From Iocasia fonsfrigidae (GTDB lineage: Bacteria; Bacillota; Halanaerobiia; Halanaerobiales; DTU029), in assembly GCF_017751145.1 (NCBI RefSeq), contig NZ_CP046640.1:910137-974136 (forward strand): a stretch of 64,000 nucleotides of DNA. The letters are read 5' to 3'. Both the position numbers and the translations under genes were made by a program. Every line of letters starts with the position of its first letter. Within the stretch, counting starts at the first letter, position 1. The notes under the pieces are model-generated. The model made no database searches. It was not told the origin of the DNA and worked only from the letters and a program-made list of their open reading frames with translations. Shown one piece after another: positions 11,196 to 21,710 of the stretch.

Positions 11196-11270
11196 TGGTA
11201 CCCCTGGTAGGAATCGAACCTACGCTACTAGTTCCGGAGACTAGTGCTCTATCCACTGAGCTACAGGGGC
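11196..11270 (-). tRNA. tRNA-Arg (anticodon CCG)
   Basis: Read on the minus strand, an acceptor stem GCCCCTG/CAGGGGT (first pair G-T), D arm GCTC/GAGC, anticodon stem CTAGT/ACTAG with loop CTCCGGA, and a T arm with GGTTCGATTCC are all present. The loop gives anticodon CCG, reading the Arg codon CGG. The 3' CCA is encoded (11196-11198). It lies just beyond the shared terminator. Confidence 0.93.
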
Positions 11271-11449: not shown

Positions 11450-11536
11450 GATTTTTGTATTTCAACAAATTTTATAGTGAGTCAACAATATCTGACAATT
11501 TATATTGACATCAGAATCTTCTTATTATATAATTAA

Positions 11537-11565
11537 AATGAACAAAATTTCAAATAATGAACAAA
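11537..11565. promoter_or_regulatory. direct repeat, possible operator of the SorC-type regulator
   Basis: AATGAACAAA occurs twice (11537-11546 and 11556-11565), 19 bp apart, 19 bp before the regulator start. SorC/DeoR-type proteins commonly bind repeated sites next to their own genes, so autoregulation is a reasonable inference. Confidence 0.4.
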
Positions 11566-11583
11566 TGTAATTGAGGTGATTTG

Positions 11584-12525
11584 GTGCTTGAAAAGGAACT
11601 GGAGTTAATGACCAAAGTAAGTTTACTCTATTATAAACAGGAATTTAGTCAACGGGAAATAGCCAAAAAATTGGATATTTCTAGACCTAAGGTTAGTAGA
11701 CTGCTGAATAAAGCTAAAGAAGAGGGGATAGTAAAAATTGAAATAGTTAGTCCGGTAAAAGATACCTCAAATTTGGAAAGTGAAATTGAATTAAGATACA
11801 ATCTAAAAGAGGTACTATTTATAGATAAAACAGATAATCAGCCAGATGAGCTAATTAAGATTAAAATAGCTAATAAGTGTAGTGAATATTTAGAAAGAAT
11901 TACAGAGGGAAAGGAATATCTTGGCTTAGCTGCTGGTACTACATTATATAAGTTTGCTGAAGAGGGTAATTTCAGTAATCGAAAGGATTATAGATATATT
12001 CCCTTAATTGGCTCACTTTCAGATATAGGGGAAAGCTATAATAGTAATGAAATCTGCAGTATTTTAAGTAAACGGGTGGGGGGGACTAACTATTTATTGA
12101 GTGCTCCTGCTCTTGTGAAAAGCCAGGAAATAGCAAATTCTTTCAGGGATGAAACAAGAATTAAAAGGATATTTAACCTCTACAAGAAGATAGATGTTGC
12201 GATTCTGGGTATTGGTGTTGCAAGTAAAAACCATCCTTTGTATAAAGGTCATTTAACACCCAGGGAAGAAAAAGAATTAGAAGCTCATCCATTATGTGGT
12301 AGTTTGGGTATAATTACTTATGATCAAAATGGAGAGATAATAGAGACAGCATTTTTAAAAAGATCTCTTGGTATCGATTTCAAAGAATTATTGAATATTC
12401 CTATAAGAATAGGACTGGCTTTCGGTGTAAAGAAAAGAGAGGCTATATTTGCTGCAATTAAAGGTGAATTTGTTAATGTATTAATTACTGACTTAAATAC
12501 TGGTCAGTGGTTGAATAAAATATAA
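11584..12525 (+). CDS. SorC/DeoR-family sugar-responsive transcriptional regulator
   Basis: An N-terminal helix-turn-helix (QREIAKKLDISRPKVSRLLNK, about residues 20-45) is followed by a SorC-type sugar-phosphate sensor domain with the AAGTTLY and GIGVAS stretches typical of the family. The length of 313 residues is normal. Two starts are possible: GTG 11584, 5 nt from GAGGTG, or TTG 11581; I use 11584. It is the first gene of a run with a binding protein, ABC ATPase, permease, TrpA-like protein and FGGY kinase, and so probably controls them in response to a phosphorylated sugar made by the kinase. The effector cannot be deduced. Confidence 0.85.
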   Translation: MLEKELELMTKVSLLYYKQEFSQREIAKKLDISRPKVSRLLNKAKEEGIVKIEIVSPVKDTSNLESEIELRYNLKEVLFIDKTDNQPDELIKIKIANKCSEYLERITEGKEYLGLAAGTTLYKFAEEGNFSNRKDYRYIPLIGSLSDIGESYNSNEICSILSKRVGGTNYLLSAPALVKSQEIANSFRDETRIKRIFNLYKKIDVAILGIGVASKNHPLYKGHLTPREEKELEAHPLCGSLGIITYDQNGEIIETAFLKRSLGIDFKELLNIPIRIGLAFGVKKREAIFAAIKGEFVNVLITDLNTGQWLNKI

Positions 12526-12544
12526 AAATAGGGGGAGTAAAGAG

Positions 12545-13465
12545 ATGAAAAAAATTATTATTTTACTTATGGCTGTTTGTTTAGTAGTAGTTTTTTCTTT
12601 GTCATTGCTGGCGGTTGGAAAAGATATTGCGGTTTTAACACCATATCTGTCATCTGTTACAACTAATACGATGATTGAATCTTTTAGAGAAGAAGCTGAA
12701 AAAGAGGGATGGGAAATTACTGTCTATGATACTAAAGGTGACTTTAATGAGTTAGCCAACCGTTATGAAGATATTATAGCACAGGGTGTTGATGCAATAG
12801 TAATGGGCATGGGCGACCCCAATCAATTAAAAAAACAGATAAAAATGGCCAATGAGGCTGGTATTCCAGTATTTGGTGGAGATGCTGGTTATATAGATGG
12901 TATCCAATGTAATGTAACCTCAAATAATTATATACTGGCTGCTCAAAACACATCATATCTTTTAGATAAAATTAATGGTGGTAAGGTTGTAAAATTTTAT
13001 CACTCGGCCCATCCTGGTGTCTTTAAAAGGGAGGTTGTTTTTGATGCTATAGTAGACTCAAGGGATGATATTGAGGTTGTGGCTGAACATTTTGTTCAGG
13101 TTCCTGGCCCGATTGAAGATGCCCGTCAGGCTATGCAGTCAATACTATTGGCTAACCCGGATATTGATGCGGTCTGGGCTGCCTGGGATGAGCCGGCTAT
13201 CGGGGCTTCTCTAGCAATACAGCAGGCTGGTCTTGAAGCTGACATCATAGTCTTTGGTATTGACGGTAATTCACAGGCACTGGAAATGATCAAGAAAGGT
13301 TCCCCAATTAAGGCTACTGTTAAACAGGACTTTGCCGCTATGGGTACAATTCTTGTCGAACAGATAAAGAGGGTATTTGCTGGGAAGGAAGTTTCGGATA
13401 AGATAATCTATGCACCGAGTATTCTTGTTACAGAAAGTAATGTAGAGCAATTTATAACAGATTAA
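12545..13465 (+). CDS. periplasmic sugar-binding protein (RbsB/type I fold)
   Basis: Substrate-binding component of a ribose-type ABC importer. A signal peptide with a long hydrophobic core (residues 5-23) and no lipobox cysteine suggests a soluble periplasmic protein. The mature part shows the type I periplasmic binding protein pattern: repeated Asp/Gly turns (IIAQGVDAIVMG, AWDEPAIGA, VFGIDGN). The 306 residues fit the family. It starts 19 nt after the SorC-type regulator gene, and a hairpin at 13479-13520 separates it from the ATPase gene, as is usual where the binding protein is made in excess. The sugar is unknown. Confidence 0.88.
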   Translation: MKKIIILLMAVCLVVVFSLSLLAVGKDIAVLTPYLSSVTTNTMIESFREEAEKEGWEITVYDTKGDFNELANRYEDIIAQGVDAIVMGMGDPNQLKKQIKMANEAGIPVFGGDAGYIDGIQCNVTSNNYILAAQNTSYLLDKINGGKVVKFYHSAHPGVFKREVVFDAIVDSRDDIEVVAEHFVQVPGPIEDARQAMQSILLANPDIDAVWAAWDEPAIGASLAIQQAGLEADIIVFGIDGNSQALEMIKKGSPIKATVKQDFAAMGTILVEQIKRVFAGKEVSDKIIYAPSILVTESNVEQFITD

Positions 13466-13478
13466 TGATCATAGATAA

Positions 13479-13520
13479 ATATAATTCTGCAGTGTAATTA
13501 ATATAACTGCAGAATTATAT
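13479..13520 (+). terminator. intercistronic hairpin (attenuator or processing site)
   Basis: A 14-bp perfect stem, ATATAATTCTGCAG (13479-13492) with CTGCAGAATTATAT (13507-13520), followed by TTCTTTT. It lies between the binding-protein and ATPase genes and probably lowers downstream expression rather than ending the operon. Confidence 0.6.
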
Positions 13521-13548
13521 TTCTTTTAAAAAGGTGGTGAGTTAATAA

Positions 13549-15051
13549 GTGTGTAGTAGACTACTTGAAATGAAAAAAATTAATAAATCTTTCCCTGGAG
13601 TAAAGGCCCTGGAAAATGTAGATTTAAGCCTTGAAAGTGGGCAAATCAGGGCATTGGTAGGAGAAAATGGGGCTGGAAAATCTACCCTCATTAAAATTTT
13701 GGCAGGTATCTATCAAGCAGATAGTGGTGAAATATATCTAGAAGGTAGCAGAGTATCTATTAAGGAACCGGAACAGGCTAAAGAATTAGGCTTGGCCTTC
13801 ATCCATCAGGATGTTAATTTAATACCTTATTTTAATGTCATTGAAAATATCTGGCTTGGTTATAAATACCCTAAAAAATGCATCTTTTTTTCCAAAAATA
13901 AAATGGAAGAAAAAGTGAAAGGGCTAGCAGATAATTTAAATTTTGAACTTGATCTATATTCACCTGTTAAAAGATTATCAACGGCAGATAAATGGTTAGT
14001 TGCTATCCTTAAAGCATTTATGATGAAGGCCAGAATACTTGTTCTTGATGAACCCACTGCAGCCCTTACAGATAAGGAAATTAAAGAGCTTTTTATTAAT
14101 CTAAAAAAAATTAAAGATAGAGGGATGGGGATTATCTATATATCCCATAGATTGGAAGAAATATTTGAAATAGCTGATTCGATTACAGTATTAAAAAATG
14201 GAGTCAACGCAGCTGATAGATTGATTGATGAGATAGATAAGGATGGTTTGATTTCTTTGATGACCGGGAAAGAATCTTTGACCAGGTTTCCAGAAAAAGA
14301 AGCTATTGAAGAGAGAAAGGGTCTAGAAATACTTAAAATTAAAAATCTTAATGGTGATGGATTTAATGATATAAACTTTAGTTTATATCAAGGGGAAGTG
14401 CTTGGTTTTTTTGGTTTGGTAGGGGCAGGTAGAACCGAATTAATGGAAGCAATATGTGGTCTTAATTATATAAATGATGGTGAAATAATATTAGAAAATA
14501 ATTTGCTGGAAGCTAAAAACCCTTATGAAGTAATAAATAAGGGTATTGTCTTGATACCTGAAGATAGAAGGGAAGAAGGACTGGTTTTAAATATGAGTGT
14601 TTTAGAGAATTTTTCGCTGCCAAATCTGCCTTTGATGCTTAAATCAAAGATACTAAAAAACATTGATAAGGCCAGAGAAAAGGACATTGCTCAAAAATAT
14701 GTTAATGAACTACAGGTAAAGACACCATCTTTAGGACAAAGAATAAAGTTTTTAAGTGGTGGAAATCAACAGAAAGTAGTAATAGGTAAATGGTTAATAA
14801 GAGATAATTCTGTTATTATTTTTGATGAACCAACTGTAGGAATTGATGTAGGTGCCAGGACTGAGGTATATAATCTTATAAATAATCTTACTAAAGAAAG
14901 TGGGATAATTGTAGTTTCCTCTGACCTACCAGAAATAGTGGGGATTTGTGACCGGGTTGCGGTTATGGCTAATGGTCAAATTACTGGTATTTTAGCAGGT
15001 GAAGATATTAGTGAAGCGAAAATATTAAATCTTAGTTATCAGGGGGTTTAG
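13549..15051 (+). CDS. sugar ABC transporter ATP-binding protein, RbsA/MglA type (double ATPase)
   Basis: Energises the importer. Two ATPase halves lie in one 500-residue chain, as in RbsA. The first half has Walker A GENGAGKST, a degenerate signature region (KRLSTADKW in place of LSxGQ), Walker B ILVLDEP and the switch ISHR. The second has GLVGAGRTE, LSGGNQQKV and VIIFDEPTVGID. Weak motifs in the first half are common in this subfamily. Start is GTG 13549, about 10 nt after AAAGGTGGTG. The permease gene follows after 3 nt. Confidence 0.92.
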   Translation: MCSRLLEMKKINKSFPGVKALENVDLSLESGQIRALVGENGAGKSTLIKILAGIYQADSGEIYLEGSRVSIKEPEQAKELGLAFIHQDVNLIPYFNVIENIWLGYKYPKKCIFFSKNKMEEKVKGLADNLNFELDLYSPVKRLSTADKWLVAILKAFMMKARILVLDEPTAALTDKEIKELFINLKKIKDRGMGIIYISHRLEEIFEIADSITVLKNGVNAADRLIDEIDKDGLISLMTGKESLTRFPEKEAIEERKGLEILKIKNLNGDGFNDINFSLYQGEVLGFFGLVGAGRTELMEAICGLNYINDGEIILENNLLEAKNPYEVINKGIVLIPEDRREEGLVLNMSVLENFSLPNLPLMLKSKILKNIDKAREKDIAQKYVNELQVKTPSLGQRIKFLSGGNQQKVVIGKWLIRDNSVIIFDEPTVGIDVGARTEVYNLINNLTKESGIIVVSSDLPEIVGICDRVAVMANGQITGILAGEDISEAKILNLSYQGV

Positions 15052-15054
15052 GAT

Positions 15055-15987
15055 ATGAAGAGTATTTTGAAAAGGTATGGCACACTAATTGGCCTGATTC
15101 TTATCTTCATTGTATTTACAATCTTAAGGCCTAGTGTATTTCCTACTTTACGAAATTTAGTAAATATATTAGAACAGATTTCTCTGCTTTCTATAATTGC
15201 TATGGGTGCTACTGTCATTATGGTAATTGGTGAATTTGATTTATCTTTAGCAAATATAAGCAGTTTTGCAGGTATAATTTCGGCAGGTTTACTGGTAGCT
15301 GGTTTACCAATATATCTGGTAATACCGGTAGTGCTTATTTTAGGTTTTGTATTTGGTCTAGTAAATGGTCTCTTGGTATCAAAACTTAATATATTATCCT
15401 TTATTACTACCCTGTCAACGGGGACTTTTCTCGCTGGGATTACTTTCTGGTATTCAGGAGGGACGATTATTTTTTCAGGAATACCAGATGATTTTCTAAT
15501 ATGGGGTCAGGGAGAGTTATTTGGATTACCTATACCAGCAATTATTATGATCGTGATATTTATTATTTTCTGGTATATTTTTAATCAGACGATGTTAGGG
15601 AGGAATTTATATGCAATAGGGGGTAATGAAAAAGCGGCTAAGTATTCAGGTATTAAAATAGAGAGAGATAAGACAATTGCCTTTGGATTGGCTGGACTAC
15701 TGGCTGCTATGACAGGGATTATCTTGACTTCAAAACTAGGTTCAGCACATCCGACAGCTGGTGGTGGATATCTATTAAAATCCTATGCAACTGTTTTTCT
15801 GGGTATGACACTCTTTAAGGAAGGGGAGCCCAATATCCCAGGTACTCTGGTAGGGGTTTTAATAATGGGGGTACTGGCCAATGGATTAACAATTTTGAGT
15901 GTACCCAACTATTTTCAGGATATGTTGACAGGGGCTATTATAGTTTCAGCTTTAGTATTTCAGGGAATGAAGGTGCAGAACAGATAA
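15055..15987 (+). CDS. sugar ABC transporter permease, RbsC type
   Basis: Inner-membrane channel of the same importer: 310 residues with eight to ten hydrophobic segments and the family signature GRNLYAIGGNEKAAKYSGI (about residues 182-200), plus GEFDLSLA near residue 60. It starts 3 nt after the ATPase stop and is followed 14 nt later by the TrpA-like gene. One permease gene implies a homodimer. Confidence 0.92.
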   Translation: MKSILKRYGTLIGLILIFIVFTILRPSVFPTLRNLVNILEQISLLSIIAMGATVIMVIGEFDLSLANISSFAGIISAGLLVAGLPIYLVIPVVLILGFVFGLVNGLLVSKLNILSFITTLSTGTFLAGITFWYSGGTIIFSGIPDDFLIWGQGELFGLPIPAIIMIVIFIIFWYIFNQTMLGRNLYAIGGNEKAAKYSGIKIERDKTIAFGLAGLLAAMTGIILTSKLGSAHPTAGGGYLLKSYATVFLGMTLFKEGEPNIPGTLVGVLIMGVLANGLTILSVPNYFQDMLTGAIIVSALVFQGMKVQNR

Positions 15988-16001
15988 GGGGTTGACGTAA
16001 T

Positions 16002-16793
16002 ATGTTGCAAACTAATATTTTAAAAAATAGTCTTATCAAAAAGAAAGAAGATAATAAGCCAGTGATGATTGCTTATTTACCTGCAGCTTATCCCGATATT
16101 GAGACCTCTAAAAAATGGATAGAGATTTTGTTTGATAATGGTATTGATGCAGTTGAACTGGGTTATCCGTCAAAATCTACTGATATGGACGGTAAAACTA
16201 TTAGTGATGCCCATCAGGAAGTAAAAAATGATGGTTTCAAAGAAAGTGATTATGAAATGATTGCTAGATATGTTTCCAGGAATAGTTCTGGCAGACTGAT
16301 TGCTATGGGTTACTGGAAGGAATTAAGGGAAAAGTTCTATAGCAAATTTGAGAATTCCTGGTTGAGAAGTGGTATTAAGTATTTACTTTTGCCTGATTTA
16401 AATCTAAGTAATAAAACAGAAGTAAAATATATACAGGATTGTGGGTATAAATTGATTCCGTTTATAAGCCGCTTGGATTTTAATTTGAATTATAGCTTAT
16501 TTAAAAATGCTCCATTTATCTACTGCCCTGCATATAAAGGTAAGACTGGTAATAGTGGTAAGATAGACAAACTTCATTTGACTAAATTAAAAGAAAAATT
16601 AAGGGAGACTGTTTTAAAGGACCTGCCGTTACTGGTGGGTTTTGGAATAAGTACTGGGGAAGATGCATTCCGTGTACGCAGTCTTGGTTATGATGGAATA
16701 ATTATAGGTACTGCAATGCTAAAGGCGTTTCAAAAGAGTGAGAATAGGGCTTTAACTTTAATAAAGGAGTTAAAAGCAGGTCTGGAGGGATAG
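16002..16793 (+). CDS. orphan TrpA-like TIM-barrel protein, candidate phospho-sugar aldolase
   Basis: A 263-residue homologue of the tryptophan synthase alpha subunit. The two catalytic residues of TrpA (Glu49 and Asp60 in E. coli) are kept with the same spacing: Glu52 in DAVELGYP and Asp63 in DMDGKTI. The phosphate-binding loops are also recognisable (YKGKTG near 179, GFGIS near 212, IIIGTAML near 230). There is no trpB or other trp gene nearby. The gene sits between a sugar permease and an FGGY kinase with 14-nt and 3-nt gaps. TrpA performs a retro-aldol cleavage releasing glyceraldehyde-3-phosphate, so I infer cleavage or isomerisation of the phosphorylated sugar made by the kinase. The fold is confident; the reaction is inference. 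Confidence 0.75.
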   Translation: MLQTNILKNSLIKKKEDNKPVMIAYLPAAYPDIETSKKWIEILFDNGIDAVELGYPSKSTDMDGKTISDAHQEVKNDGFKESDYEMIARYVSRNSSGRLIAMGYWKELREKFYSKFENSWLRSGIKYLLLPDLNLSNKTEVKYIQDCGYKLIPFISRLDFNLNYSLFKNAPFIYCPAYKGKTGNSGKIDKLHLTKLKEKLRETVLKDLPLLVGFGISTGEDAFRVRSLGYDGIIIGTAMLKAFQKSENRALTLIKELKAGLEG

Positions 16794-16796
16794 ATT

Positions 16797-18287
16797 ATGA
16801 CTGAAAAATATATACTTACTTATGATATGGGAACTACCATGATTAAATTAGTACTCTTTGACCAGGAAGGAAACATTGTATATGATGACAGTTTTAATCT
16901 TGATAACTATAATATAGATGGGCATCAGGTTCAGCAGGCTGAAAATTGGTGGGATGGTATTACTACATTGACCCATAGACTAGCTGATTCTGGTATTGAT
17001 TTAAATAGTATTTCAGCTATAGTTTCTACTGGTCAGATGGAAGACTGTCTGCTCCTTGATTCAAAAGGAGATATTTTAACAGAGGTATTATTATATTCTG
17101 ATGGTAGGGCCACTGAAGAGCAAAAATATATTATTGATAGAATAGGTGAAGAGGATTTATACTATATATTAGCTAATAATTTTGATTCTTTAATGTCAGT
17201 TAATAAGTATCTCTGGCTTAAGAAACATAGGAAAGAGGTCTTTAAAGAACATGCCTATCTTATATTAGGAGCAAAGGATTATTTAAATTTTAAACTAACA
17301 GGATATAATGTAACTGATTATACTAATGCTTCTACAACTGGATTTATGGATTTGAAAAAACGAAAATGGAGTTCCAGAATAATAGATGAATTAGAGATTG
17401 ATATCAGTAAGCTGCCACAGATAAATAAATCAACCTCTATTATAGGTGAAGTAAAGAAAGAGGCTGCTGAAGAATTAAAAATCCCGTCAGGGATACCGGT
17501 TATAAATGGTTCTGGTGATGTAGGTGCTTCAACATTAGGTGCAGGGGCATGGAGAGAAGGGGATATTTACTGCTATCTCGGTACAACAGGTTGGCTGGCC
17601 GCCCCTCTAGAGAGACTGACTGATAATCCCAATGTTTTTACCTTAAGTAATATTGATGGTGAGGGTTATATCTTAGCTGGTGCAATTCTGAATGCTGGTA
17701 AACCTTATGACTGGTATCTGGCTAATTTTTTAAATAAACATATAGATAAGGGCCTTAAAGAAGAAGATTACTTAAATAATGAGGAGAAAATAAAAGACCT
17801 TAATGCAGCTGAGAAAGGGGTTTTCTTTTTACCATTTATTAACGGGGAAAGGAGCCCGATAAAAGTAAAGGAGAACAATGGTGTATTTCTGGGCCTTGGA
17901 CCTGAGACAGATAAGTACCTATTATTAAGGGCTGTTCTGGAAGGTGTTTCTTTTTCATTAAAGCATAATCTAAATGAACTCAAGGGTTTAGGTGCTTCTA
18001 TAAGAAAGCTGAACTTAATTGGTGGGGGTGGTAAGAGTAAGGTGTGGCCCCAGATTTTAGTCAATGTTTTAAATCTGGAGGTTAATGTATTAGACCTGGG
18101 GATAGGTGCCCCATCAATGGGAACAGCATTAATGGCCTATAAGGCACTGGGATTACTCAATAATTATAGTGAATTTATTGAACAGTTTAGTGTTAAAAAG
18201 AAATTCAAACCTAAAAAAGAAGATGCAGCCATTTATTCACAGTCTTTTAAATACTATTTAGCTTATATTGATAAATTATATAATTAA
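16797..18287 (+). CDS. FGGY-family carbohydrate kinase
   Basis: ATP-dependent kinase of the xylulokinase/glycerol kinase family, 496 residues. The N-terminal phosphate loop YDMGTTMIKLVLFD, the substrate segment VSTGQMEDCLL, the middle GAKDYLNFKLTG, and the C-terminal GGGGKSKVWPQI and LGIGAPSMGTALMA are typical. The usual SAIVSTGQMH-type substrate loop carries an Asp in place of the common His. It starts 3 nt after the TrpA-like gene, so the two products are probably made together. Substrate may be a ketose or polyol; sequence alone cannot say which. Confidence 0.9.
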   Translation: MTEKYILTYDMGTTMIKLVLFDQEGNIVYDDSFNLDNYNIDGHQVQQAENWWDGITTLTHRLADSGIDLNSISAIVSTGQMEDCLLLDSKGDILTEVLLYSDGRATEEQKYIIDRIGEEDLYYILANNFDSLMSVNKYLWLKKHRKEVFKEHAYLILGAKDYLNFKLTGYNVTDYTNASTTGFMDLKKRKWSSRIIDELEIDISKLPQINKSTSIIGEVKKEAAEELKIPSGIPVINGSGDVGASTLGAGAWREGDIYCYLGTTGWLAAPLERLTDNPNVFTLSNIDGEGYILAGAILNAGKPYDWYLANFLNKHIDKGLKEEDYLNNEEKIKDLNAAEKGVFFLPFINGERSPIKVKENNGVFLGLGPETDKYLLLRAVLEGVSFSLKHNLNELKGLGASIRKLNLIGGGGKSKVWPQILVNVLNLEVNVLDLGIGAPSMGTALMAYKALGLLNNYSEFIEQFSVKKKFKPKKEDAAIYSQSFKYYLAYIDKLYN

Positions 18288-18353: not shown

Positions 18354-18457
18354 AACTTGTGAAATAATTTAGTATATAATATATATTGTATGAAAGTGGA
18401 AAATAATTATAAGTAAGTGGATTGAGGATAGCTGGTAAAGCAGGGTGGTGTAGTATT

Positions 18458-20257
18458 ATGTTTGAGAGATTTAAAAAGATACATAGAAAATACAAATTAA
18501 GGTATAAGATGATCTTTGTTAACTTACTGATATCTATTTTGCCGATCATATTAATTGCCCTGATATTTTACAATATATTTTTAAATAATATTGAAAAGTA
18601 TGTTTCCAGTTCTGTTGATTTATATTTTAACCAGGTTAACCATAGGTTAGAGGAATATTTAGATACAGTAAATATAATTGCTGATTCTGTTTTCTTTGAT
18701 AAGAAATTGCAGGAGCTAATAACCAGCAAAGATAAGAACTACTGGGATAAATATAATGAAATAGACCTTTTATTTCAATCTTTTTTAAAATTTTATGAAT
18801 CTGTTGAGGATATCTATATAATTGATAATAATCATGATATCTATCATTCTAAATCCATAGTTTTCAGAGATGAGTTTAAGAATTTTATTATTAATATTGA
18901 TTCAGCTAAAATAAATGATGGTAGGCTTTATTTTGCTGATCCGGTTAAGACCAAGGGTGGTGATTCATATTTCATTGCCTATCGAGTAATCAAATCTATG
19001 TTTTTTAAAAATTTCATGGCGAATATAGCAAGAGGAGCAGTTATCTTAGATGCTAAGAAGATAGAAAATATTATTGAGGAAAATAATCTCCCTGAGGGTT
19101 CTCATGTCTTTATTCAAAATAATGCTGGAGAAGTAATTACAGTTACCAGGGATGAGACAGTGGATATTTATCGCAGTTCACAGGCTGATCTTAATTCAAA
19201 TAAGAAATATATTAATGTAAATGGTGTAAGTTATATGCAGAGAACAAGTGAGCTTAATAAGGTAGGCTGGACTATCAAGGCACTGATCAATAGGGATAGG
19301 CTGATTGAAGAGGGGCGGGTTGTACAATATACCATAATTCTAATAGCCTTAATAGTCTTTATTTTTGTGGTGATAACTACTCTTATTTTTAATTATCGTC
19401 TAACATTTCCCTTAAAGAAAATGGCTGATGCCTTTGACCGGGTAGCGATAGGTGATTTTAATTATCAGCTTAAGTTTAAGTATAAAAATGAAATTACTAA
19501 TATAGAAGATAACTTTAATAACATGATCAGAGAGCTGGAGGGTTTGACCAAGAATCTTTTAGAAACACAGGAAAAGGCTCACCTGATAGAGCTGGAAAAA
19601 AAACAATTTCAATTAGATAGCTTACAGGCCCAGATAAATGCCCATTTTCTGTATAATACCTTAAATACGATCAGGGTGATGGCCCTTACTGGTGCTAAAA
19701 AAGAAATGGATAGAATGATCAGTAATCTGGTAGATTATCTGCGCTATATAAGTAAAGTACATGAATTTGTAAGCCTGGAAGAGGAACTTGCACAGCTTAA
19801 TAAATATAAAAATATTGAAAACCTACGTTTTGCCAATAAGTTTAAATTGAAATATAAGATTGAATCAGGTCTAGAGAAACTTAAAATTCTGAAACTTACT
19901 GTTCAGCCTGTTCTGGAGAACTCTATTTTTCACGGTTTGAGACAGATACCAGGAAATGGTGTTATTCAGATATCGGCTTTTCAAAAAGGAAATAAGGTTT
20001 TAATCAGAATTATGGATAATGGTACAGGAATAAAAAAAAGGGAGTTAAAGGAAATCAAACAGAGTATACAAAAACCGGAGATTATAACTGATAATAGTAA
20101 GGGGAGTGATATAGGGATCGGATTGGCCAATATCCATAAAAGAATTCAGTTATATTATGGCAAGGATTTTGGACTGGAAGTAAAGAGCTGGGAAAATATT
20201 GGAACGGTGGTTACAATTTCTTATCCATATAGAAAGGGGAAAAAGGAAGATGTATAA
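18458..20257 (+). CDS. sensor histidine kinase, YesM type
   Basis: Membrane sensor of a two-component system. A first membrane helix (residues about 18-40), a large extracytoplasmic sensor part, a second helix near 290-312, a HAMP linker, the His_kinase domain with His396 in QINAHFLYNT (the usual Pro before His is Ala), and an ATPase domain with ENSIFHGL and NGTGI are seen. The chosen ATG at 18458 follows GGGTGGTG by 7 nt and gives 599 residues; a TTG at 18422 is also in frame. It overlaps the response regulator gene by 8 nt. Its place before a porin and an oligosaccharide importer suggests it senses pectin fragments in the periplasm. Confidence 0.9.
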   Translation: MFERFKKIHRKYKLRYKMIFVNLLISILPIILIALIFYNIFLNNIEKYVSSSVDLYFNQVNHRLEEYLDTVNIIADSVFFDKKLQELITSKDKNYWDKYNEIDLLFQSFLKFYESVEDIYIIDNNHDIYHSKSIVFRDEFKNFIINIDSAKINDGRLYFADPVKTKGGDSYFIAYRVIKSMFFKNFMANIARGAVILDAKKIENIIEENNLPEGSHVFIQNNAGEVITVTRDETVDIYRSSQADLNSNKKYINVNGVSYMQRTSELNKVGWTIKALINRDRLIEEGRVVQYTIILIALIVFIFVVITTLIFNYRLTFPLKKMADAFDRVAIGDFNYQLKFKYKNEITNIEDNFNNMIRELEGLTKNLLETQEKAHLIELEKKQFQLDSLQAQINAHFLYNTLNTIRVMALTGAKKEMDRMISNLVDYLRYISKVHEFVSLEEELAQLNKYKNIENLRFANKFKLKYKIESGLEKLKILKLTVQPVLENSIFHGLRQIPGNGVIQISAFQKGNKVLIRIMDNGTGIKKRELKEIKQSIQKPEIITDNSKGSDIGIGLANIHKRIQLYYGKDFGLEVKSWENIGTVVTISYPYRKGKKEDV

Positions 20258-21710
20258 GGCTTTATTAATTGATGATGAACCCTGGATCTTAAAAGACCTT
20301 GAACTCCTGGTAGATTGGAATAAACTAGGGTTTGAAGTGATTACAAAAATAAGTAATAGTAAGGAGGCTGTTCAGGTAATAAAAAAACAGCTGCCGGACT
20401 TGATTGTTTGTGATATAAAAATGCCGGGATTAAATGGGATTGAATTGATGAAGCTGGTTAAAAGGGATTTCCCCGGTATTTATGTTGTTTTTGTAAGTGC
20501 CTACAGTGAATTTACTTATGCTAAAGAAGCAATCGAATTAGGGGCCTTTGATTATATCTTAAAACCGACAAAGGATAAGGAGTTAAGAACTGTCCTCAAG
20601 AGGGTATCTTCACACCTGGGTAAAGATAATGAGGAAAAGAAGAAATTAGAGAAATATAGGAAGACAGAGTTATTTCTAGAGCTGTTAGAAAACAATCTGG
20701 AAGAGCAGATAATTATAAAGAAATTAAATAATATAGGGTATAATATAGCTTATGATAGGTTTTGTGTTGTAATAGTAAATTGTCTTGCTAATAATTTAAC
20801 TAATGAATACTGGCAGAGTCAGTTAAAGGATTGTTTTTCTTCATATAAATTATTATTTATTCAATTTGGTGAGAAGAAATGGTTGATATTATGTAATTTT
20901 AGCTCAGCTGTTTTAATAGATAGTAGGTGTTTTAATGAAGTTGGTTTGGTTGCAGATAAATTTAAGCTGTCAGTAGGTGTTAGTGACAGTTTTGATAATC
21001 TAGTTGATTTAAAACATTACTATAAAGAGGCAGAACTGATTGCGTATAATTATTTTATTTATAAAAAGGGCGGTATATATAAATATTCATTATATAATAA
21101 TAATTATATAGAGCTGTCAACAAAAATTAAGGGCCTGACTTCTTGTAGCGATTTAAAAAGATTTGTTGGTAAATTACCTGAATTATTACCTGAGGAAAGG
21201 ATTAATCTGGAGGAAATCGCTTATTTATATAACTGTTTGCAGGAAAAAGCCAATGCCCTGTGTAATCTTAGGTTTGAAATAGAACTGTTGGCTCCATTAG
21301 ATATAATATATTCGTTTAATAATCTACAGGAACTATTCGAACAGTTATTAAGTTCTTTAAATGAATATAAGGGTAGTGATAAATCCAGGGTATCACATGA
21401 TATTGTCGAAAAGATTATCAAAGAAATAAAGCAAAAATATAATCAAAACATAAGTTTACAGGATTTAGCTGTAAAACATCATCTTAATTATAATTATTTA
21501 AGCCAATTATTTAAAAAAGAAACAGGACAAACATTCACCAATTATTTAATTGAACTCCGTATAAAAAAGGCAATTAAATTGTTTTCAAAAGACCTATTAT
21601 TTTACCAGATAGCCAGAAAAGTGGGTTATGATGATTATTATCATTTTTGTAAAATATTCAAAAAACATAAGGGTCTAAGTCCAAGTGAATTTAAAAAGAA
21701 ATATATCTAA
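20250..21710 (+). CDS. response regulator with AraC-type DNA-binding domain, YesN type
   Basis: An N-terminal receiver domain (acidic DDEP, phospho-acceptor Asp55 in VCDIKMPG, conserved Lys in LKPTKD) is joined to a long linker and a C-terminal AraC helix-turn-helix pair (YNYLSQLFKKETGQTF, ARKVGYDDYYHFCKIF). It has 486 residues from ATG 20250, which lies inside the last codons of the kinase gene (ATGTATAA overlap), so translation is probably coupled. It likely activates the porin and ABC genes that follow, but the binding site is not established. Confidence 0.92.
   Translation: MYKALLIDDEPWILKDLELLVDWNKLGFEVITKISNSKEAVQVIKKQLPDLIVCDIKMPGLNGIELMKLVKRDFPGIYVVFVSAYSEFTYAKEAIELGAFDYILKPTKDKELRTVLKRVSSHLGKDNEEKKKLEKYRKTELFLELLENNLEEQIIIKKLNNIGYNIAYDRFCVVIVNCLANNLTNEYWQSQLKDCFSSYKLLFIQFGEKKWLILCNFSSAVLIDSRCFNEVGLVADKFKLSVGVSDSFDNLVDLKHYYKEAELIAYNYFIYKKGGIYKYSLYNNNYIELSTKIKGLTSCSDLKRFVGKLPELLPEERINLEEIAYLYNCLQEKANALCNLRFEIELLAPLDIIYSFNNLQELFEQLLSSLNEYKGSDKSRVSHDIVEKIIKEIKQKYNQNISLQDLAVKHHLNYNYLSQLFKKETGQTFTNYLIELRIKKAIKLFSKDLLFYQIARKVGYDDYYHFCKIFKKHKGLSPSEFKKKYI

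Follow-up and report, generated by a model that had tools for sequence, protein, structure and literature searches.

The operon lies in a 64,000-nt window (the whole stretch of DNA analysed here, G000:C1:910137-974136) of genome G000, which is a single contig of 3.93 Mb. As assigned by Pfam and NCBIfam, it encodes, in this order, a SorC-family regulator, a binding protein (hereafter SBP), an ABC ATPase, a permease, a homolog of TrpA, the tryptophan synthase alpha subunit (hereafter TrpAL), and an FGGY carbohydrate kinase (Table 1); an earlier note on this DNA had read the same order and the same families. The successive intergenic gaps are 19, 83, 3, 14 and 3 nt. The regulator contains both the SorC sugar-binding domain and the N-terminal HTH that characterize the SorC family, and its best PDB matches are the sorbitol operon regulator (2w48) and DeoR (8r7y); the GTG at 11584 is a better match to the ribosome-binding site GAGGTG than the TTG listed as the start (11581). 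For the SBP (AlphaFold pLDDT 91), the nearest solved folds are those of proteins that bind ribose and other sugars, and the evidence on its pocket is ambiguous, the WAxWD motif being also present in the related 3l49. A tRNA gene (window 11199-11270, minus strand) is located between glutamate synthase genes and the cassette; this tRNA and a lysine riboswitch in locus L102 are the only elements identified by an Rfam scan. Immediately 3' of the operon, window positions 18422-21710 encode a histidine kinase and an AraC-type response regulator, and no match to either gene was found next to the cassette in the other loci from Halanaerobiales.

Table 1. Features of the operon and of a related cassette (window positions unless a locus is named)
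Feature	Position	Strand	Details
Sigma-70-type promoter	11505-11533	+	TTGACA-17-TATAAT, 12/12 match
Putative SorC operator	11539-11566	+	TGAACAAAATTTCA (11539-11552) and second half TGAACAAAT (11558-11566)
SorC-family regulator	11581/11584-12525	+	PF04198, 173.5 bits
Periplasmic SBP, ribose (CUT2) type, distinctive conserved pocket	12545-13465	+	PF13407, alignment A2
ABC sugar ATPase, two ABC domains	13549-15051	+	Pfam, NCBIfam
ABC sugar permease	15055-15987	+	PF02653
TrpAL, TrpA-family TIM barrel, candidate stand-alone lyase	16002-16793	+	PF00290, 101.6 bits
FGGY carbohydrate kinase, GQMED at XylB GQMHG position	16797-18287	+	PF00370/PF02782
TrpAL-less transporter-kinase cassette of G007, after trpD-C-F-B-A	L102 4925-10962		

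A -35/-10 pair comparable to that of the window precedes the SorC gene in L033-L037, as judged by eye. The first half of the putative operator, TGAACAAAATTTCA, consists of the same letters as the core of the left half-operator of Bacillus subtilis DeoR, ATTGAACAAAATTTCAAT (sequence from PMC11229326), and the word TGAACAAA occurs at the equivalent place in L033, L034, L035, L037 and L104 and is not recognisable there in L036. The B. subtilis DeoR regulon is similar to the window operon in the SorC subfamily of its regulator and in this operator core, but the window operon contains no deoxynucleoside genes; the window regulator scores below the DeoR equivalog cut-off (NF053881, 206.9 versus 420). 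By analogy with the SorC family, the regulator would repress its own operon, and a phosphorylated pathway intermediate would lift this repression.

The same genome encodes a canonical trpA at G000:C1:3175288, 2.2 Mb from TrpAL, within a trpEGDCFA cluster, whose genes were named from their sequences. Because this separate gene in a trp operon scores much higher (286 bits versus 101), TrpAL is a paralog, neither linked to trp genes nor the sole copy in the genome. The earlier note had pointed to the lack of trp genes around TrpAL, had suggested a search for a trp operon elsewhere, and had named a TrpAL that is the only trpA of the genome as an outcome that would count against its proposal; the first is borne out, the second located the trpEGDCFA cluster with trpB apart at G000:C1:2882611, and the third does not hold. 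Separation of trpB from trpA is common in these genomes (also L143 and L151), and in G026 trpB and TrpAL are present and no canonical trpA was found. The nearest folds of TrpAL (AlphaFold pLDDT 93) are those of tryptophan synthase alpha; its score against the TrpA equivalog model TIGR00262 is 95.2, under the cut-off of 102.35, which is passed by the TrpALs of L033, L103 and L105 and not by that of L104. When plasmids were searched with TrpAL, most of the records retrieved bore the annotation of a canonical trpA, and no relatives were found among viral contigs.

Among the 38 genomes of the order, the salt-loving Halanaerobiales, that were searched, five besides that of the window encode a close TrpAL (37-47% identity in the search, 36-47% in the alignment), and in all five the full order SorC-SBP-ATPase-permease-TrpAL-FGGY is preserved. 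With a family profile, these TrpALs score above 380 bits versus 133 for the best canonical TrpA. The same six-gene unit is carried by the MAG contigs L041 (titled Limnochordia) and L134, and a search started with the SBP led to diverged TrpAL units in Bacillota (L103, L104, L105, L125 and L136); L105 and L125 have the order ATPase-permease-TrpAL-FGGY-SBP, and L104 has a stop inside the SBP reading frame and ends, as a contig, after TrpAL. Altogether, the FGGY kinase gene adjoins TrpAL in 12 of the 13 TrpAL loci, the contig of the remaining one ending at that point. This linkage is not a matter of chance, since five further Halanaerobiales and Bacillota at a greater distance share the gene order. 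The TrpAL cassette is therefore a real, conserved pathway unit, as the earlier note had supposed, and a lack of conserved linkage to the kinase, which it had listed among the grounds for abandoning the idea, is not what these loci present. In two genomes with the cassette (G021 and G204, 93-96% complete), no trpB above the cut-off was found.

A maximum-likelihood tree splits the 11 cassette TrpALs from 55 canonical TrpAs with support 99/94; because of the long branches and the unsettled bootstrap, the tree is firm for this split only. The phylogeny that had been called for thus puts TrpAL on a branch of its own, tied to one clade of FGGY kinases. Residues were compared between the 11 cassette TrpALs and 54 canonical TrpAs, with numbering after the Escherichia coli TrpA sequence. 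Glu52 and Asp63, previously proposed as the catalytic acids, align with E49 and D60 of TrpA, the distance of 11 between the two being unchanged, and the phosphate loops are preserved as well. All 11 TrpALs retain E49, D60, Y175, T183, G184, G211-F212-G213 and G234 and have S or T at the position of S235, so that the catalytic pair and the phosphate site typical of TrpA are present in every cassette protein. By contrast, canonical F/Y54, S55, A59 and P132 are found in none of the 11 and N104 in one, versus 47-54 of the 54 canonical TrpAs. These five positions touch TrpB or shape loop 2 in TrpA; TrpALs have lost most of the TrpB-contact and loop-2 residues. The positions I64, M100, P129 and F212 of the hydrophobic pocket are retained, and two pocket positions are altered (A59 to M, R, K, H, L or N; L177 to P, T, Q or R). 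With regard to the conserved active-site lysine of class I (Schiff-base) aldolases, K181, just past strand 6, does not vary within the Halanaerobiales/Limnochordia branch, and the diverged branch has R, C or P at this position. In TrpA, cleavage of indole-3-glycerol phosphate depends on the E49-D60 pair, and stand-alone activity is controlled by loops 2 and 6 (PMC12930369).

Thus, TrpAL resembles TrpA in its fold, the catalytic Glu and Asp, the phosphate loops, Tyr175 and Thr183, but differs in lacking most of the TrpB-contact and loop-2 residues and adjacent trp genes, in its separate branch, and in the presence of a canonical copy elsewhere. That TrpAL is a mere second tryptophan synthase alpha subunit, moved by chance into a sugar operon, is highly improbable: it is TrpA according to both Pfam and NCBIfam, and several of the cassette proteins exceed the TIGR00262 cut-off, but the separate canonical trpA, the 13 linked loci, the separate branch, the loss of most TrpB contacts and the occurrence of cassettes in genomes without detected trpB all speak against it. 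Chance insertion of a spare trpA was accordingly ruled out by the linkage, the tree and the residue table.

The cassette kinases, including those of two TrpAL-less cassettes described below, form one clade (support 98/97). When the Chromobacterium violaceum kinase 3hz6 is added, it falls inside this clade (support 97/94), and therefore a solved relative of the cassette kinases exists. At the position of GQMHG in E. coli XylB, the kinases of the clade share the motif G(Q/S)M(E/Q)(D/N), which is absent from all of the related kinases from aldolase-type cassettes. The window kinase, with GQMED and no GQMH motif, scores below the XylB cut-off (TIGR01312, 307.9 versus 380.25) and far below that of the AI-2 kinase LsrK (NF008187, 163.7 versus 528). 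The FGGY fold is common to the cassette kinases, XylB and C. violaceum 3hz6/3kzb, and 3hz6 has the signature GQMQN, but His78 and Asn234 of XylB become E/Q and V/L/A, respectively, in the cassette kinases. These sequence features suggest that the substrate of the cassette kinase is likely to be other than D-xylulose.

The interpretation that we favor, and consider somewhat probable, is that the operon serves the uptake of a small polyhydroxy compound, which is phosphorylated by the kinase and cleaved at a C-C bond by a stand-alone TrpAL with release of glyceraldehyde-3-phosphate. The compound would be brought in by the transporter, and the FGGY kinase would phosphorylate its terminal hydroxyl, yielding R-CHOH-CHOH-CH2-O-phosphate. 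TrpAL would then split a C-C bond without TrpB, by TrpA-type acid-base chemistry (Glu52, Asp63), into R-H and glyceraldehyde-3-phosphate, which would enter glycolysis, and SorC would repress the promoter until a phosphate ester of the pathway binds. Whereas the gene order and its conservation, the paralog status of TrpAL, the retention and loss of residues, the kinase clade and the putative operator are computed, we infer the direction of the reaction, the bond cleaved, the substrate and the SorC effector.

Cassettes that lack TrpAL bear on the nature of this compound. The SBP of G007 is 79% identical to that of the window, and both TrpAL and SorC are missing; here, the SBP-ATPase-permease-FGGY genes begin 132 nt past the trpA of a trpD-C-F-B-A operon (names read from the sequence), with no terminator or promoter found in the gap, and this trpA is the only one found in the G007 genome. 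Because the transporter and the kinase persist without TrpAL, the latter either is dispensable or can be replaced, the adjacent trpA being a possible substitute. On three Nitratireductor plasmids (L107, L115/L137 and L114/L138), an AraC-FGGY-SBP-ATPase-permease-GntR cassette with a related SBP (44% in the aligned copy) is divergent from trpBA; in N. kimnyeongensis, the record is linear, with trpBA and the cassette at opposite ends. The region adjoins inositol genes in two of these species. The kinases of G007 and Nitratireductor both fall within the TrpAL-linked clade. By a rough reckoning, a cassette would come to lie beside trpA by chance about once in a thousand cases or less, and thus its presence there in two lineages is suggestive and supports the notion that canonical TrpA stands in for TrpAL in these cassettes.

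The same arrangement supports an indolyl- or arylglycerol as the imported compound. The kinase would convert it to indole-3-glycerol phosphate or an analog, and TrpAL would be a bacterial stand-alone lyase similar to maize BX1 that releases the arene and glyceraldehyde-3-phosphate and that canonical TrpA can replace. This would be a special case of the polyhydroxy-compound lyase explanation, so that the confidence in the two overlaps; on its own, we regard it as unlikely. The location of the G007 cassette downstream of trpA without an intervening terminator or promoter, the divergent trpBA of Nitratireductor, the placement of both kinases in the clade, and the retained I64, M100, P129 and F212 are all compatible with it. 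The changes of A59 and L177, the ribose and other sugars bound by the nearest solved SBPs, and the cassettes of G021 and G204 point in the opposite direction. In these two genomes without detected trpB, the released arene could not become tryptophan, which disfavors tryptophan salvage as the general function. The plant enzyme BX1, the indole-3-glycerol phosphate lyase, is comparable to TrpAL as a TrpA paralog apparently active without TrpB, but TrpAL is bacterial, belongs to a transporter-kinase operon and has changed pocket positions. BX1 likewise departs from Ala59, having Ile59 (PMC12930369).

A second group of related SorC/ABC/FGGY cassettes carries a Schiff-base aldolase of the DeoC/LacD type and no TrpAL. 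In L127, the aldolase gene adjoins that of SorC and its product scores above the LsrF cut-off (310.8 versus 297); in L129 and L130, it is flanked by the kinase gene on one side and by the SBP or permease region on the other. Across L127, L128, L129 and L130, an LsrF- or DhnA-type aldolase and/or a zinc alcohol dehydrogenase is present. These cassettes are more distant (SBP scores of 208-224 bits with profile A2, kinases outside the TrpAL-linked clade), and therefore their substrate probably differs. By analogy, these aldolases are the best functional clue that TrpAL may catalyze the cleavage of a C-C bond. A further related cassette, on a Tritonibacter plasmid (L109, 8-17 kb), encodes a SorC regulator, a related SBP with ABC genes and an FGGY kinase along with a thiamine-diphosphate E1 pair, an alpha/beta hydrolase and a carboxymuconolactone decarboxylase-like protein.

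The imported compound might alternatively be a ketose such as a hexulose, phosphorylated at position 6 and cleaved by TrpAL to dihydroxyacetone and glyceraldehyde-3-phosphate, in the manner of fructose-6-phosphate aldolase and with neither Schiff base nor metal. This, too, is a special case of the lyase explanation, and a doubtful one. The ribose-type SBP, a kinase closest to the xylulokinase models, the class I aldolase or LsrF of related cassettes and the cassettes of G021 and G204, which do without detected trpB, agree with a ketose, and, by our own reasoning, a distance of three carbons between the phosphate and the bond to be cleaved fits the geometry of TrpA; however, the TrpAL-less cassettes beside trpA and trpBA are left unexplained, and no dihydroxyacetone kinase was recognised within the cassette neighborhoods.

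The earlier note had allowed for isomerisation as well as cleavage. TrpA is a ribulose-phosphate-binding barrel, a class that includes epimerases, and hence the residues of TrpAL could also serve an isomerase or epimerase that feeds the kinase product into the pentose phosphate pathway. We consider this quite improbable: TrpA shares its barrel type with phosphate-sugar epimerases, a pair of carboxylates can shuttle protons and cassettes without TrpAL can exist, but the catalytic pair is exactly that of the retro-aldolase, and it is aldolases that take the place of TrpAL in related cassettes. Retro-aldol chemistry is plausible, given the complete retention of the catalytic pair and the phosphate site and the presence of a true aldolase in related cassettes. 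Of the kinase-then-TrpAL pathway as originally put forward, the conserved unit, its distinctness from the trpA of the cell, the separate branch and the single kinase clade stand, and the cleavage step is plausible. No published description of such a pathway was found in open-access full text, in line with what had been claimed.

The lsr (autoinducer-2) operon is similar in combining a SorC regulator, a CUT2-type ABC transporter, an FGGY kinase and a TIM-barrel enzyme acting on C-C bonds, but the window operon has a TrpA-type enzyme in place of LsrF, a single permease gene and a kinase far under the LsrK cut-off, and no LsrG was seen adjoining the cassette.

TrpA is the textbook single-purpose enzyme, and, to our knowledge, only the cleavage of indole-3-glycerol phosphate has so far been assigned to its family. 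With somewhat less than even confidence, we propose that the family has been recruited to catabolism, as a stand-alone lyase using neither Schiff base nor metal that acts on the product of an FGGY kinase of new specificity, the transported substrate not being known yet as a bacterial nutrient. The question is directly testable, given the self-contained six-gene unit, the solved relative of the kinase, and the opportunity to compare TrpAL cassettes with their natural counterpart next to trpA in G007. If the proposal is true, automatic trpA annotations in these genomes would be corrected, sugar-phosphate metabolism would gain a new type of lyase, and this conserved side branch would show that the retro-aldol chemistry of TrpA has been reused in sugar-type operons.
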